Assembly (NCBI RefSeq): GCF_015169395.1
Contig: NZ_CP063458.1
Location: forward strand, 6,572,001-6,636,000
Direction of reading: 5' to 3'
Source of the DNA: Humisphaera borealis
GTDB taxonomy: Bacteria > Planctomycetota > Phycisphaerae > Tepidisphaerales > Tepidisphaeraceae
DNA: 64,000 nt
A program made the position numbers and the translations under genes. Positions 20,356-61,900 of the stretch are shown here, one piece after another. The notes beneath the pieces were generated by a model, which did no database searches, was not told the DNA's origin, and saw nothing but the letters and a program-made list of their open reading frames with translations. Position 1 is the first letter of the stretch; every line of letters starts with the position of its first letter.

Positions 20356-23300
20356 TCAGTTCAGACCCCAGCGTTCATGATCCCAGACCGCCAGTAGATC
20401 ATCCGAGCCGTCGGTGTCGCCGGCGTCCTTCAAAGACGACTGCGGCCGAATCAACGTCTGGGCGAACACAGGTGAAGCGGGGGCTTCTACCTTTGCCGAA
20501 CCATGCTTGGCCGCGGGGCGGACGGGCGGAAGTTCGACCTTCTCCGACGCGGCCTCGCCAATCGAAGCTGCGACCGACGGGCGGGGGTCGGCAATGCCCT
20601 GCGCGTTGCGGTTGGCGGTCGCCAGCTGGAACGTCGCGCTGGCCGATTGCGATCCTGAAAGCCGTGCCGTCGCGCCGGCGTATTCGTACACCCGATCGGT
20701 GCCGGCATCGACGATCCAAAGGTCGCTGACATCGTTCGGATCGAGGGTCAGGCCCGTCGGCGTCCGGTTGGCCGAGTCGATCGTCCAGTTGCCTTCCAGC
20801 AAACCCAGCATGCTGTAGCGGAACACGCTGTCGAGCTTCGACCCGTCGTTCACCACCCACAGGTGGCTTCCGTCGGTGACAACATCCATGGCGTCACGAT
20901 TGCTGCGGTTCAGCGAGAAGCTCGATGTCGCCGACACCTTGCCCGACAACCGGGCCGCCGCGCCGGCGAAGTAGAACACCTTGTCCGAATCGTTATCGAC
21001 GACCCAGAGACTGACGCCGTCGGTGGTGATGCCCTCTGGCCTGCCGAGGCCCTTGGCCGTCCAGGATCCGAGCAGCTTGCCCGCCGGCGTGTAGACGAAC
21101 ACGTCTCCCTTCTCGTCTATCGTCCAGAGCCGCGTGCCGTCGGCTTTGGCGGCGATGCCACGCGGGTCGGCATTCTCCTTGTTCAGGCTCTTGCGGGTGG
21201 TCGCGGCCCCGGCGGCGTCGTAGCCGAAGGTGTCGGTCGTCGTGCCATCGACCACATAGAACTTCGTTCCGCCCGGCACGACGACCGGCGTCACAACGAT
21301 CGTGACTGTCGCCGCGGCCGAGGCGGCCGTGCCGTCGATGGCGCTGTAGGTAAAGCTGTCGGTCCCGCTGTATCCGGCCGAGGGGGTGTACACAAAGCTG
21401 CCGCTGGCATTCAGCACCAGCGTGCCGTGGGCCGGACCGGTGACCTGAACGGCATTCAGCAGGTCGCCGTCGGTATCGGAGTCATTTCCGAGAAGACCAG
21501 GGGCTGAGACGGTCAGTGTTGCGCCCTGGGCAACCGAGTAGGCATCGTTGCCCGCCACGGGCGTGTCGTTGACCGCGGAAACGGTCAAACTCACGGTCGC
21601 TGCGCTCGAGCTAAGCGTGCCGTCGCTTGCGCGATAGGTGAAGCTGTCCGGGCCGTTGTAGTTCGCAGCCGGGGTGTAGGTGAACGACCCATCGGCATTC
21701 AGCGAGACAGTCCCGTGGGCGGGGCCGGTCACGATGCCGGCAGTCAGCGGGTCGCCGTCGGCGTCGGAATCGTTCGACAGCAGGCCCGGCGCGGAAATGT
21801 TCAGCGGCTGGTCCTCCGCCGTCGTGTAGACATCGTCGGCGGCGACCGGTGCATCATTCACGGCTGTCACACCCAGCGTCACCGTCGCCAGGTTGGAACT
21901 CACGGTGCCGTCGCTGGCGCGATACGTGAAGCTGTCGGGGCCGTTGTAGTTCGCCGCCGGGGTGTAGGTGAAGGAACCGTCGGCGTTCAGCGTGATCGTC
22001 CCGTGGACCGGGCCGGTCACGATGCCGGCGGTCAGCGGATCGCCGTCGGCGTCGGAATCGTTCGACAGCAGGCCCGGCGCGGAAATGTTCAGCGGCTGGT
22101 CCTCCGCCGTCGCGTAGACATCGTCGGCGGCGACCGGTGCATCGTTCACGGCGGCAATGCTGAGCGTCACCGTCGCCAGGTTGGAACTCGCGGTGCCGTC
22201 GCTGGCGCGATAGGTGAAACTGTCCGGGCCGTTGTAGTTCTCGGCCGGCGTGTAGCTGAATGAGCCGTCGGTATTCAACGAGACCGTACCATGGGTCGGC
22301 GCATCGACCAGCGTCACGGTCAGCGCGCTTCCCTCGATGTCCGAATCGTTCGACAACACGCCTGGAGGCGTGACGGTCAGCGTCGTGTCTTCCGACGTCG
22401 AATAGCTGTCGTTCCCGGCGGTCGGGGCATCGTTAACGGCGGCAATGTTCACGATAAAGGTCTGCGGCAGGCTGATGTCGATACCGCCGCCGACCGTGCC
22501 GCCGTTGTCATGCAGACTGACGGTGACGACCGCCGACCCGCTGGCGTTGGCGGCGGGTGTGTAGCTGAGCGTGCCGTCGGCCGACACCGTGGGCTGCACG
22601 CTGAAGAGCGCGTTGTTGTCGTTGGTCACGATAAAGTCGAGCACCTGGCCCGCTTCGCTCGCCGGCCCGGCGCTGATCGCCGTCGCCCAGCCGCTGACGA
22701 TCTGGCTGGCGGCGTCTTCGAGCACGTTCTGGTCGGCACCCTTGACGAAACTCGGCGCGCTGTTGACCGCCACGGCACTGGTCGAGGCGCCGAAGTCGAT
22801 CGAGTCTTCGAACTCGCCGTCTTCCAGTTCGCAATACTCGTAGCCGTCGCCGGGGATTGGCGTTCCGATGACGACTGGGATCGAACCCATCACCACGTTG
22901 GTTCCGGCCCGGACGAATTGCAGGTCTAACCGGCGCGGCGCGCCGTCGCCGATGAACTCGACGTCAAACGTCGCCGTCTGGCCGGCACCGATGCCGGTCA
23001 GCGTTCCGGTGTAATTGGTGATCCGCACCCGCGGATCGGACGCCTGCACGGTGAGATCGACCGCGACGTTGGTGACCGCATTCTGGATCGCGTTGACCAC
23101 GCCATTGGCGACGCTGCCGGCAAAGCCCGAGGCGATCTGAAAGTAAAGCGGGTCGCCGGGGGCGATCGGGTCGGCCGTTCCGTTGTCGATGGTGGCGGTC
23201 GAGCGGTTGACCGCGCCCGTCAGCTTCGACAGCGACTCCAGCCCCTGCCGCGGGTCGAGCGTCGCCTGCGGATTGGTGCCCAGGCCGATGACCAAGGCTC

Positions 23301-31677: not shown

Positions 31678-32457
31678 ATGGACAAACCGATCGACCCGAC
31701 CCAGCCTGCTCTGCCCGACGCCGCCGGTTCGTCGCCGGGCCTGCGATTGTCCGTCGTGATACCGGTCTTTAATGAGGCCGGCACCATCCACGAACTGGTG
31801 GGGCGGGTGGTCGCGGCAAGGGTGCCGGCGGGACTTGTGAAGGAGATTGTCTGCGTCAACGACGCCTCGACGGACGGCACGGCGGCCCGGCTGGATGCGC
31901 TGCCCGCGATGTTCCCTGAAGTGCCCATCCGCGTGATTCACCTGCCGGTGAACCGCGGCAAGGGGGCGGCGGTTCGAGCAGGGTTCGCGGCGGCGACGGG
32001 TGATGTGGTGCTCATCCAGGATGCGGACCTGGAGTACGACCCCGACGACTATCCCACGCTGCTGGAGCCGATCGTCGAAGACCGCGCCGATGTCGTCTAC
32101 GGCAGCCGATTTATCGGGTCTGAGCCGCACCGGGTGCATTATTTCTGGCACTCGGTGGCGAATCGGATGCTCACTTTGATGAGCAACATGATGACCAACC
32201 TCAACCTCACCGATATGGAGGTGGGGTACAAGGTCTTCCGGGCCTCGGTGCTGAAGCGGATTCCGCCGCTCAAGTGCGACCGGTTCGGCTTTGAACCCGA
32301 GGTGACGGCGAAGGTCGCCAGGCTGCGCCCGCGCGTGCGGGTGTACGAGGTCGGCGTGAGTTATCACGGCCGAAGCTACGAGGAAGGCAAGAAGATAACG
32401 TGGATCGACGGGATCAAGGCGGTCCTGACGATCCTGCGGTTTCGGATCTTTAAGTAA
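31678..32457 (+). CDS. Family 2 glycosyltransferase (DPM1/GtrB-like)
   Basis: A 259-residue GT-A enzyme without obvious membrane helices. LSVVIPVFNEAGTIHELV opens the domain, VCVNDASTDGTAARLD provides the nucleotide-binding Asp, and QDADLEYDPDDYP gives the DxD-like site. DVVYGSRF and MEVGYKVFRASVL follow, all typical of polyprenyl-phosphate mannosyl/glucosyl transferases. It probably makes a lipid-linked sugar donor. It is followed, after a heptamer-repeat hairpin, by a UDP-glucuronate decarboxylase gene on the same strand, which suggests a shared role in envelope glycan synthesis. Together with the GT87 enzyme upstream it could supply the lipid-linked sugar (inference). Confidence 0.88.
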   Translation: MDKPIDPTQPALPDAAGSSPGLRLSVVIPVFNEAGTIHELVGRVVAARVPAGLVKEIVCVNDASTDGTAARLDALPAMFPEVPIRVIHLPVNRGKGAAVRAGFAAATGDVVLIQDADLEYDPDDYPTLLEPIVEDRADVVYGSRFIGSEPHRVHYFWHSVANRMLTLMSNMMTNLNLTDMEVGYKVFRASVLKRIPPLKCDRFGFEPEVTAKVARLRPRVRVYEVGVSYHGRSYEEGKKITWIDGIKAVLTILRFRIFK

Positions 32458-32541
32458 GCAGTACGCAGTATGCAGTAGGCAGAACATTCAGTGCGACAGG
32501 AAGAGGCGTGATCTTTTCTGCTTACTGCGTACTGCCTACTT
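32455..32541. repeat. Heptamer-repeat inverted arms between GT2 and uxs
   Basis: The left arm has consecutive 7-nt units GCAGTAC, GCAGTAT, GCAGTAG, GCAGAAC (32458-32485). The right arm has CTGCTTA, CTGCGTA, CTGCCTA (32518-32538), the reverse complement of the same design. A 32-nt loop separates them. The right arm ends a few bases before the GAAGGAA ribosome-binding site of the next gene. Confidence 0.8.
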
Positions 32542-35136: not shown

Positions 35137-35215
35137 GAAGTCGGAAGTCGGAAGTCGGGAGTCAGAAGAATGCAGTTCTGAATCTGACTCTGACTCCCGA
35201 CTTTGGACTTCCGAC
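35137..35215. repeat. Heptamer-repeat hairpin between convergent genes
   Basis: The left arm has GAAGTCG three times in tandem and then GGAGTCA (35137-35164). The right arm, 35183-35215, carries TGACTC, CGACTTT, GGACTTC-type units in reverse complement. It lies between the stops of the GbsR-type gene (35116) and the broken four-helix gene (35236). A short unpaired arm of the same unit type, TTCTGAC twice, occurs at 35620-35633. Confidence 0.8.
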
Positions 35216-35235
35216 GCCAGCCGCCATCGGCGGCA

Positions 35236-42612: not shown

Positions 42613-42726
42613 GTCAGTGACTCGGGCTTCCAGCCCATGCTGGCGACCTTGAAGTCGAAGGACGGTCGTAGGCGAAACCATCCACTCCCGCACAACGCGC
42701 ACGGGCTGGAAGCCCGTGTCACTGAC
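42613..42726. repeat. Large inverted repeat made of two GGGCTTCCAGCCC hairpins
   Basis: The left arm, 42613-42640, contains GTCAGTGACTCGGGCTTCCA; the right arm, 42697-42726, is its near-perfect reverse complement. Each arm also folds on itself (GGGCT-tcc-AGCCC). Related copies are at 28998-29028 and 29141-29176. It lies between the divergent serine hydrolase and delta-60 genes. Confidence 0.8.
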
Positions 42727-48210: not shown

Positions 48211-48322
48211 GGTCCACGAATAGACACGAATGCTCACGAATGAAGAAGGGCAGGGGCCGCGCGGTTTGTCCGCCAGTCCTCATCCTTCTCTATTCGTGAG
48301 CATTCGTGTTCATTCGTGGACC
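48211..48322. repeat. Decamer-repeat inverted arms
   Basis: The left arm has CACGAATAGA, CACGAATGCT, CACGAATGAA (48215-48244). The right arm has TATTCGTGAG, CATTCGTGTT, CATTCGTGGA (48291-48320). It lies between the convergent small LE-x-R gene and ahpD and could end transcription from both sides. Confidence 0.75.
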
Positions 48323-48348: not shown

Positions 48349-48876
48349 TTACAAGCCCGCCGTCAGCACTTGCGCCGCCGCGTGGAACACCGCGGCGATG
48401 CGGATCGCGTCGTTCACCTGGTCTTCGGTGACGTTGTGCCCCATCAGGGCCTTCTCGTGCGACTGCACGCACATCTCGCAACCATGAATCGCGCTGACGG
48501 CAAGTGAATAGAGCTCGAAATCGACCTTCGTCGATGTCGGCTGCATGATCCGGTTCATGCGCAGGCGCGGCGGCTTCTGGCCGTAGCTGGGCTTGTCGAC
48601 CATGTGCCGAAAGCGGTAGTAGATGTTGTTCATCGCCATCAGCACCGCTGATGCGGCGGCGTCTTCCAGCACCCTGGGCTCGACATGGTTCCGCGCGTCG
48701 GCGAGGGTTGCTTCCTTCAGTTGCGGGCTGTTGCACGCTATCGCGCTCGCCACCGCCACGCCCCAGCGCTGATCGACCGACAACGACGAATCGGATAGCA
48801 CGCTCGACAGGTTGAGCTTGATGTCCTTGGCGTATTCCGGGAACGACTGGCGGAGCGCCTCGAGTGCTTCGAGCAT
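48349..48876 (-). CDS. ahpD: AhpD-type alkylhydroperoxidase
   Basis: A 175-residue protein starting MLEALEALRQSFPEY behind GAGG. The catalytic segment is HGCEMCVQSHEKAL, with Cys133, Cys136 and His140 in the family spacing. AhpD reduces AhpC in organisms without AhpF, through a CxxC thiol cycle. It lies downstream of ahpC on the same strand. The 204-bp gap between them holds a heptamer-repeat hairpin, which may tune the relative amounts. The upstream extension of the frame is encoded by that repeat and is not protein-like. Confidence 0.93.
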   Translation of the reverse strand: MLEALEALRQSFPEYAKDIKLNLSSVLSDSSLSVDQRWGVAVASAIACNSPQLKEATLADARNHVEPRVLEDAAASAVLMAMNNIYYRFRHMVDKPSYGQKPPRLRMNRIMQPTSTKVDFELYSLAVSAIHGCEMCVQSHEKALMGHNVTEDQVNDAIRIAAVFHAAAQVLTAGL

Positions 48877-48889
48877 GACAACCTCACAG

Positions 48890-49064
48890 GAATGACGAAT
48901 GATGAAAATCGAATGGCGAATGAAGTTCGAATGACGAACGAACAAATGACGAAATGCGGCAGGACAATGAGTGCGGCGAACTGACGAACAAGGCAGCCAT
49001 CCGGTCGCGCCTTCGTCATTCACTCGTCATTCACTTGTCATCCGCATTCCGTCATTCGTCATTG
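48890..49064. repeat. Heptamer-repeat inverted arms between ahpC and ahpD
   Basis: The left arm has GAATGAC, GAATGAT, GAAAATC, GAATGGC, GAATGAA and a further GAATGAC (48890-48935). The right arm has GTCATTC, GTCATTC, GTCATCC, GCATTCC, GTCATTC, GTCATTG (49015-49064), with two 4-nt interruptions. It is the largest of the three heptamer loci. Confidence 0.8.
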
Positions 49065-49080
49065 AGCCGCACCGCGACCT

Positions 49081-49620
49081 CTACGCTACCTTCAGGGTCG
49101 CGTCCCCGTCTTTCCAGTTGCAGGGGCAGAGTTCATCGGTCTGGAGTGCATCGAGCACGCGGATGACTTCGTCCACGTTGCGACCGACCTTCAGGTCGTT
49201 GACGCTCGCCCAGCGGATGACACCCTGGGGATCGACGATGTAGGTCGCGCGAAGGGCGACGCCTTCCTCGGGGTGAAGAATGCCGCAGGCGGTGGTCAGC
49301 TCGCGCTTGGTGTCGGCGACCATCGGGATCGGCAGGCCGCGGAGGTCGTTGTGATCTTTCCGCCAGGCCAGGTGAACAAACTGGGTGTCGGTGCTGACGC
49401 CAAGAACCTGGGTATCGCGGTCGGTGAACTCGCCGTTCTTCCTGCCGAACTCGGCGATCTCGGTCGGGCAGACGAAGGTGAAGTCCATCGGCCAGAAGAA
49501 GACGACGAGCCACTTGCCCGGGAAACTGTCGCTGGACAGCTCGGCAAACTCCTTGCCTTTTTCAATGCTGACCACGGACTGGAGCTTGAACTGAGGGAAC
49601 TGATCGCGAACACCAAGCAT
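49081..49620 (-). CDS. ahpC: Peroxiredoxin AhpC
   Basis: A 179-residue 2-Cys peroxiredoxin starting MLGVRDQFPQFKLQSV behind GGAG. The peroxidatic Cys51 is in WPMDFTFVCPTE. The C-terminal resolving pair is Cys165 and Cys167 in DELCPCNW. A third Cys at CPC recalls the mycobacterial AhpC that is reduced by AhpD, which agrees with the ahpD gene next in the operon. It reduces H2O2 and organic hydroperoxides in the cytoplasm. A palindrome with OxyR-like half-site spacing lies about 215 bp upstream. Confidence 0.95.
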   Translation of the reverse strand: MLGVRDQFPQFKLQSVVSIEKGKEFAELSSDSFPGKWLVVFFWPMDFTFVCPTEIAEFGRKNGEFTDRDTQVLGVSTDTQFVHLAWRKDHNDLRGLPIPMVADTKRELTTACGILHPEEGVALRATYIVDPQGVIRWASVNDLKVGRNVDEVIRVLDALQTDELCPCNWKDGDATLKVA

Positions 49621-49833
49621 GACGAGACTCCATTGATCGTAAATAACCCGGGCGGAGACCGGCACGGGCAACTCATTGCACGTGTATCAGTCAGGACTCA
49701 CGTCCACCGGTCCGCACGCCTCTTTTTCATCCGCCGGAAAGCCAGGTCGTCCGCAGGACGCGAACGAGCACCACTTTGGAAGTGGCAGAAAGTATCCCAC
49801 CGAGGTCAGCAGTTCAAACGGGTGCGGCTGAAT

Positions 49834-58986: not shown

Positions 58987-61900
58987 CTACACGATCTCGA
59001 TGAAGTTGATCTTCGTGTCACCCGTCGCAGCAGCACCGATGCCGAGCGTCAGGCGACCGTCGGCGACCGTCACCTGTGTCTTGCGGGCGATGAACGTCGC
59101 AGGGCCCAGCGGAACCCCGCTGAAGAACGTCGTACCCTCGATGTTGATCGTGCTGGTGCTGCTGCCACCGGCGTCGCCGACGCTGATCGTCACCGTATAG
59201 GTGCCGTTGGGAACGTCCAGCTCCCAGGTCGCACCTGCCTTGACGGCGACGTGCGTATCCAGCAACTGGTTCGCGTTCATGTTGCGGTCGAAGACCGAGT
59301 CGATGTGCGACGTGCTCCAGCCATAGTTCTGGCCGTTGCCCCGGTCGGCGAAGGTCAGGCCTGAATCCACCAGGTAGCTCGGAACGGTCGTCGCGGCCGA
59401 CGGCTGGAAGTTGATCAGCACCGGCGGCGAGACCGGCGGCGGCACGGTCGGCGGGGCGACGAAGTTCAGCGTCACCTCGTACGATCCGCCCACCGTTCCG
59501 GTGGCACCGGCACCGCTGTAGGCGATCGCCTTGATCACATGCGTACCGAGCGGGGCTGTCCAGGGGAGGAAGTCCAGCCCGAGGTCGCCACCAATCGCAT
59601 GGGGCAGACTCGTCTCCACTTTCACTTCGACGCCATCGACCAGGAACTGCACTGAACCGACCGTTCCGGTTTCGATCGCGTGCAGGTTGATTCCCGGCGA
59701 GCCGACCTGGATCGTCTGATCGGCAACGACGGCACCGATGTTCGCATCCATGTCAGCGTTCACCAGCATCAGCCCCGTAACGCCAAACGTCGGCGTCGGA
59801 GGCACAGTCGGCGGAACGGTGGGAGGTACAGTCGGCGGCACCGTCGGCGGAACGGTTGGAGGTACTGTGGGCGGCACCGTCGGTGGAACGGTAGGCGGTA
59901 CGGTCGGTGGGACCGTGGGCGGCGTCGTCGGGGGAACGACCGGGGGCGGTACCGCGGTTACTTCGATGAAATCGAGCCGCGTCGCGTTCGTCGTCGTCCC
60001 GCCGAACGCCAGCGTCAATCGCCCGTCGGCGACGGTGATGGTCGCCGTCTTGTTGCTGAACACATTCTTCGCCAGGCTCTGGTAAACGAACAGATTGGTC
60101 GACCCTTCGACCCAAACGTTGTTCTTACTGGCGGCACCGGAGTCGCCGACCCCGATCTTCACCGTGTACTTGCCGTTCGGGACGGCCAATTCCCATTTCG
60201 CGCCGGCTTTGACGCCGACATTGGTATCGAGCAGTTGGTTGCTGTTGAGGTTCCGGTCGATCACGTTGCCGGCGTGGGTAACAGTCCAGCCGTACGACTG
60301 GCCGTTGCCCCGGCTGCCATACAGGGCACCGGCGTCCACCAGGTAACCCGAAACCGTCGGTGCCGTTGACGGCTGGAAGTTGACCTTCACCGGCGGGGGG
60401 ACCGACGGCGGAACGGTGGGAGGTACTGTCGGCGGCACCGTGGGCGGCACGGTTGGCGGAACAGTGGGAGGCACGGTGGGTGGCACCGTTGGCGGTACGG
60501 TTGGGGGTACCGTTGGCGCGACGAATGTCAGCGTCACGTCGTACGTCGAGGCGACGCTGCCGGTCGCATCCTGTCCCGTGTAGGCGACCACTTCGATCAG
60601 GTGCGTGCCGAGCGGGGCATTCCACGCCAGGAAATCCGGCGCGGCGTCGCCACCGATCGCATATGGCGCATTGTTCTCGACCTTTACCTCCTGCCCGTCG
60701 ATCAGGAACTGCACGGAACCTACGGTCCCGGTGGTGATCGCATGCAGATTGATCCCGGTCGTGGCGACCTCGATCGTTTCGTTGGCGATCACCGCACCGA
60801 CATTGGCGTCAGTCGTCGCGTTCACCAGCATCAGGCCGGAGATCGTTGCCGGCACTGTCGGGGGCACGGTGGGCGGAACCGTCGGCGGAACGGTGGGGGG
60901 CGATGTCACGGTGGAACCGATCCGCACATAGTTGAGCCGCGTCAGGCCCGCCGTGGACTGCCCGCCGACCGACAGCGTCAGCTTGCCGTCGGTCACGTTG
61001 ACGGTCGCAGTGCGCGCCAGGAAGTTGTTCTTCGCCAGCGGAACGTACGCGAAAAGGTTGTTGGCGCCTTCAATCCAGATGTTGTTAGTCGACGCGATCC
61101 CGGCGTCGCCGACGCCGACGGTCACCGTGTACTGGCCGTTGGGAACGGCGTACTCCCACTTGCCGCCGACCTTGAGGCCGACATTGGTGTCGAGCAGCTG
61201 GTTGCTGTTGAGGTTCCGGTCCACCACGACGTCGGTGTGACTGGTCGTCACCCAGCCGTAGGTGCTGCCGTTACCGCGACTGCCGTAGAGTGAGCCGCTG
61301 TCCACCAGGTAGCCCGAGACGGTCGGCGCGGCGGCCGGCTGGAAGTTGACCTGAGCCGTTGTGACTGTCGGCGGTACCGTCGGAGGGACGGTGGGGGGCA
61401 CTGTCGGGGGGACAATGGGCGGCGGCACCGCCACGATGTTGAACGTCAGCGCGTATTCCAGCGAATTGCCCACTTCGCCGGTCGCTGCGGCGCCGGTGTA
61501 TACCGTCACCTTGACGGTGTGCGTGCCGGCCGGTGGCAGCCACGGGTCGATCGCCGCTCCGTTGCCCGTTCCGATGACATACGGCGCAGTTCCCTCGATC
61601 CGCTCCTGAACGCCGTCCACTTCGAACTTCACCGACCCGACATCGCCGGCCGTGACGGCGCGCAGGCTGATGTTGGGCAGTCCCACCTGGACGGTGTCGC
61701 CGGTGGTGAGCAGCCCGATATCGGCATCGGTGTCGGCGTTGACGAGCATCAGGCCCGTCACCTGCATGATCGGGCGCGTGTAGACGTCCGTCTCGGTGGC
61801 GGCCGTGGTCAGGTTGCCGGCGCGATCGGTGCCGGCGCCCTCGGGCAGCGACATCACGTAAGCGCCGTCGCCGACCAGGTACGGCGACAGCCCTTTCAGC

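Follow-up and report, generated by a model that had tools for sequence, protein, structure and literature searches.

What is the long inverted repeat that separates ahpC from ahpD in the planctomycete Humisphaera borealis, and is it a device of this peroxide-defence locus? We analyzed a 64,000-nucleotide stretch of the genome (the window; contig NZ_CP063458.1, positions 6,572,001–6,636,000), in which the original prediction had placed arms of about 50 nt, built of heptamer units, between the two genes. The gap measures 204 nt (48877–49080, plus-strand coordinates), and the locus comprises the following features.

48211–48322, no strand assigned: second hairpin, of the CACGAATG dialect with a period of ∼10 nt, in the convergent gap that follows ahpD (−75.1 kcal/mol, z −10.7)
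48349–48876, minus strand: ahpD (alkylhydroperoxidase D family; TIGR00777, TIGR00778), with its ATG 14 nt after the hairpin
48882–48885, minus strand: GAGG, a possible ribosome-binding site of ahpD as read from the sequence, 5 nt away from the ATG and not part of the stem
48891–49063, no strand assigned: whole element, a degenerate copy of a dispersed heptamer-hairpin family that we term R1 (cmsearch with the R1 model)
48891–48942, minus strand: left arm on the plus strand (3' arm in the transcript), with units AATGACG, AATGGCG and AATGAAG (repeat searches; R1 match from model position 1)
48943–49011, minus strand: inner segment and loop, which exceeds that of intact family copies in length and is less regular (repeat search, fold, comparison with copies)
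49012–49063, minus strand: right arm on the plus strand (5' arm in the transcript), with units GTCATTC and the terminus CCGTCATTCGTCATT, compare the family consensus TTTCGTCATTCGTCATT (repeat searches, R1)
49081–49623, minus strand: AhpC/TSA-family peroxiredoxin (ahpC; Pfam AhpC-TSA, 1e-36), with its stop codon 17 nt before the hairpin

A repeat search recovers two arms of 52 nt each (48891–48942 and 49012–49063), which are 71% complementary and spaced by 69 nt. Tandem-repeat searches locate the 7-nt units GAATGAC at 48890–48953 and GTCATTC at 49037–49063, and an 11-nt phase, TCGTCATTCAC, is also found at 49013–49041. The transcribed minus strand folds with −71.6 kcal/mol, compared with −55.0 ± 4.2 kcal/mol for dinucleotide shuffles (z −4.0), and none of the 200 shuffles folds equally well; the hairpin thus goes beyond chance. 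The heptamer-built arms are therefore as originally described, but the stem they form is imperfect and contains no clean 50-bp helix. No Rfam family matches the window above its gathering score. Of the flanking proteins, the peroxiredoxin reaches 151 of the 272 bits set as cut-off for the NCBIfam AhpC equivalog, and AhpD scores 188.5 bits with TIGR00777, slightly under the cut-off of 191.95, while passing that of the core domain model TIGR00778. Order, strand and gap length suggest that ahpC and ahpD form one operon.

Is the element confined to this locus? The pattern ATTCGTCATTCGTCATT has 65 matches in the 7.19-Mb genome when two mismatches are allowed, and typically a reverse match is followed by a forward match within about 200 nt. 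Extracted copies read AATGACG, AATGACG, AAAWTCG, AATGGCG and AATGAAG, followed by an inner arm, a loop and the complement, with the 7-nt register running all along the arms. The element is ∼125 nt long, with copies of about 95–200 nt that have paired AATGACG...CGTCATT ends, and pairing is nearly complete in the best copies, such as the one of 126 nt at 3879644–3879769. We built a covariance model from 13 copies, leaving out the one in the window, and found R1 at no fewer than 53 places in the genome at E ≤ 1e-4 (at least this number, 150 of 1348 candidates having been scored, and both-strand matches taken once). The ahpC-ahpD element matches this model with 68.0 bits (E is 1.1e-14 in the window and 1.3e-12 in the whole genome) and aligns over model positions 1–131, that is, over its full length. 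Stem columns of the R1 alignment covary, with 19 pairs showing two-sided changes and a score that is equalled in 1 of 500 shuffles. R1 is present in 37 of 61 relatives and, at E ≤ 1e-4, in 35 of 199 genomes sampled across the phylum. A nearly exact R1 arm also occurs in records labelled Phycisphaerae, Pirellulales, Acidobacteria and Chloroflexi, which are metagenome bins in which mis-binning is possible; a clear partner arm is seen in only two of these four records, in the stretch examined.

We next asked how far such hairpins extend beyond R1, using an 864-kb sample of the genome in which genes were called by a simple codon-usage caller made for this analysis. Scanning the first 464 kb de novo yielded 39 ungapped inverted repeats with a score ≥22; after shuffling of this sequence, none had a score ≥18. 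Over the 864 kb, inverted repeats with a score ≥18 occupy 114 of the 489 gaps of ≥60 nt, compared with 13 such repeats in 711 kb of coding sequence. Their arm words vary widely (GAATGAC, AGTAGGC, CGAACAT, TGTCACT, GTCGGAA and CACGAATG) and include G+C-rich palindromic dialects such as GTCCGCC..GGCGGAC. Self-similarity at lag 7 is 0.396 across all 117 arms and 0.278 after shuffling (z 16.4; at lag 14, z is 13.1). The lag-7 signal persists when GAATGAC/GAATGGC arms are left out (z 11.5), and arms of the congener G001 show it as well (z 5.3); gaps that hold no hairpin have almost none of it (z 2.4). R1 is one of many sequence dialects of long intergenic hairpins. The ahpC-ahpD hairpin, a degenerate member of a family that is spread over the genome and belongs to this larger class, is for this reason not specific to peroxide defence, and the earlier idea of a feature belonging to the ahpC-ahpD operon is replaced by that of a dispersed element.

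Other members of the class lie in the window. The hairpin at 48211–48322 is more perfect than the one between ahpC and ahpD, and its word pair has 24 pattern matches in the genome. A GTCGGAA-heptamer hairpin occupies a convergent gap at 35137–35218 and matches R1 weakly (E 8.9e-6). Heptamers of the type AGTAAGC/AGTACGC are found at 32453–32540, with CTGCCTA units close by, and the reversed control of our first pattern search, which returned 70 places, points to this dialect genome-wide. The hairpin at 42613–42726, with arms GTCAGTGACTCGGGCTTCCAGCCCATGC, is among the few in divergent gaps; a palindromic word related to its arms is about fourfold denser in the congener. Dialect repertoires differ between the two genomes: GTCCGCC..GGCGGAC occurs 76 times per Mb in H. 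borealis, with none in the G001 sample, and GCGAAG..CGCGAAG 16 times per Mb in G001, with none in H. borealis. Two further repeats in the window appear to be coding: a tandem array with a 288-nt unit at 21617–22447 (2.4–2.9 copies, 82–89% matches) is likely a repeated protein domain, and long 12/24-nt tandem runs at 59794–60897, GGCGGCACC-like, are probably a low-complexity coding region.

The hairpins are unevenly placed with respect to genes. Among gaps of ≥60 nt in the 864 kb, an inverted repeat is found in 23 of 70 convergent (33%), 77 of 313 co-directional (25%) and 14 of 106 divergent gaps (13%; p is 0.0024 for convergent versus divergent and 0.014 for co-directional versus divergent). 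In the 120–250-nt range, the contrast is 54 of 154 versus 1 of 31 gaps (p 1.5e-4). In co-directional gaps, the median distance of the hairpins is 17.5 nt to the stop codon upstream and 41.5 nt to the start codon that follows, with 56 nearer the stop and 20 nearer the start. In a small sample from the congener G001, divergent gaps are not depleted (6 of 15 contain an inverted repeat with a score ≥15).

To see what is retained at the same position in another genome, we turned to G001, the one relative in which ahpD was detected (87% identity) and on which the comparison of the ahpC-ahpD gap therefore relies. The G001 gap contains an uninterrupted 44-bp outer stem made of GCGAAGGC-family words and folds with −157.5 kcal/mol (z −11.8). 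It has no R1 match, and its arm sequence is unrelated to that in H. borealis. Comparison of the gap in a relative, as originally proposed, thus reveals a long hairpin without common sequence, which suggests that in this orthologous gap the shape has been kept while the letters were swapped. We extended the comparison by searching G001 with C-terminal pieces of hairpin-preceding genes, which gave 14 gaps with conserved neighbors. Nine of these hold a hairpin with a score ≥20 in G001, against a background of 11 in the 45 remaining G001 gaps that are co-directional or convergent (p 0.0085 for nine); the count becomes 10 of 14 with case 26, whose gap was cut inside its hairpin, and four show no clear hairpin. 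Most syntenic hairpins use other words in G001: AATGACG here is matched by GTAGGCG/GTACGCG between pilB-like and pilT-like genes, and CGAACAT by CCCGGGGCTT between murE- and murF-like genes (all four names are readings of the translations); one gap pair has AGTAGGC in both genomes. The control set of gaps without hairpins contained only three syntenic cases, two with an inverted repeat, and is too small for use.

Is there a sign of selection on the RNA? Selection for RNA pairing would favor G·U wobbles over A·C mismatches, yet 143 co-directional hairpins show 421 and 428 of them, respectively, on the transcribed strand. R1 alone leans toward G·U (149 versus 118, p 0.066, non-significant). A hint of G·U excess in a few R1 copies is gone in the set of 143, and we rejected wobble asymmetry as a sign of RNA-level selection. 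Because long stems tolerate single mismatches, equal counts remain compatible with an RNA role. U-tracts are likewise rare, 5 T in 8 nt being found in 3 of 128 hairpin tails, and both results argue against strong selection at the RNA level. The role first proposed, limiting read-through into ahpD or protecting ahpC mRNA, is backed in part, and indirectly: clustering at stop codons, rarity in divergent gaps and the congener hairpin speak for it, and wobble asymmetry and U-tract do not.

Taken together, we favor, with a probability of about 0.5, the reading that the ahpC-ahpD feature is a dispersed extragenic hairpin that would be selected as a hairpin and not as a sequence, and that would serve as a barrier or processing structure at gene 3' ends, with interchangeable dialects. 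Both where the hairpins lie and their retention are consistent with a structural element at the 3' ends of mRNAs, and the hairpins probably damp read-through or shield the upstream mRNA. Upon transcription of ahpC and ahpD, the element would fold into a long stem ending shortly before the ahpD start. This stem could slow or end transcription, be processed, or block 3' exonucleases, so that read-through into ahpD, or its translation, would be reduced and/or the 3' end of ahpC mRNA protected. The balance might thereby be tilted toward ahpC; an action on ahpD translation is conceivable because the stem base lies 14 nt from the ATG. If selection retains the hairpin and not its particular sequence, hairpins of different dialects could replace each other. 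We consider it rather unlikely that, beyond this, a single copying process deposits inverted arrays of 7-nt period immediately after stop codons, using whatever word is current, with dialects replaced in place and the hairpin selected.

The strongest rival is that the hairpins are selfish or neutral repeats without a host role, which survive where they are least harmful, outside genes and promoters. Such survival would by itself yield a bias toward gene 3' ends, and the depletion of divergent gaps is expected from promoter damage. The lack of wobble asymmetry and U-tracts, the patchy distribution among relatives and decayed copies such as the one in the window (71% complementary) agree with this explanation. 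Against it stand the above-background occurrence of hairpins in orthologous gaps despite sequence change, the position of co-directional elements far nearer to stops than to starts, and the covariation of the arms. We regard it as a possible explanation, though a tentative one. A transposon-derived MITE appears very improbable, as does a REP that owes its mobility to a REP-associated tyrosine transposase. Palindromic copies are dispersed in the genome, which also has 11 Y1_Tnp matches, and the terminal inverted repeats of a MITE are present in that the element forms an inverted repeat over its entire length. However, none of 16 copies has identical flanks of 2–9 nt that would indicate a target-site duplication, no R1 hairpin was found at the four Y1_Tnp loci inspected, and a ∼125-nt unit in heptamer register (copies of about 95–200 nt) is unlike the 20–40-nt palindrome of a GTAG/CGTC-tagged REP. 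An ordinary intrinsic terminator between ahpC and ahpD, a short G+C-rich stem with a U-tract, is scarcely credible: the location just after the ahpC stop would suit it, and termination by hairpins without a U-stretch has been reported in some bacteria (PMC8355165), but a terminator scan returned no site at the element, no T-run follows the stem on either strand, the stem is much longer than usual, and ahpD would lose its only evident promoter.

If orthologous 3' ends indeed keep a hairpin whose sequence is exchanged, comparison by sequence would miss a large structural class, which by extrapolation from the 864-kb gap counts has about 970 members in this genome. How inverted arrays with a 7-nt period originate, and whether a hairpin of any sequence can set the gene balance of an operon, are the questions raised. 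In the open-access literature we found no paper on heptamer hairpins at gene ends or on their replacement in place, and the arm words, searched as text strings, returned no match.

Several known systems resemble the hairpins in part. The heptanucleotide repeats of cyanobacteria are known as STRRs. In cyanobacteria and Beggiatoaceae, such intergenic tandem 7-nt units form several word families per genome (PMC4679880). These are direct repeats, and TAACTGA in most cases closely precedes a start codon, whereas the heptamer arrays described here are inverted pairs that form hairpins near stop codons. Haemophilus and Neisseria have terminators made of inverted DNA-uptake-sequence pairs, which lie 3' of genes and whose two arms consist of repeated short words (PMC2267715). 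R1-class hairpins are likewise built from repeated short words 3' of genes, but their arms contain many heptamers and many different words. We know of no uptake role for them.

By analogy, the element is best read as a REP/ERIC-like extragenic palindrome. REP, BIME and REPIN elements with their RAYT transposases are repetitive extragenic palindromes of many copies, reported from Planctomycetes as well (PMC3733652). R1 shares the extragenic palindrome and the many copies per genome, and differs from the 20–40-nt REP with GTAG or CGTC tags in being ∼125 nt long, untagged as far as seen, and without a link to the four inspected Y1_Tnp loci. The enterobacterial ERIC, also termed IRU or RU-1, is an imperfect palindrome of ∼127 nt, intergenic, multi-copy and co-transcribed, with a single long predicted stem-loop (PMC2267715, PMC2229807). 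R1 is likewise palindromic, intergenic and multi-copy with a long stem-loop, a likeness of description. ERIC ends in TA with a target-site duplication, whereas no duplication is seen in 16 R1 copies, and R1-class arms differ from ERIC in their 7-nt register and many dialects. For Yersinia ERIC, co-transcription has been reported, and the transcript upstream of the element is reportedly affected (PMC2229807).
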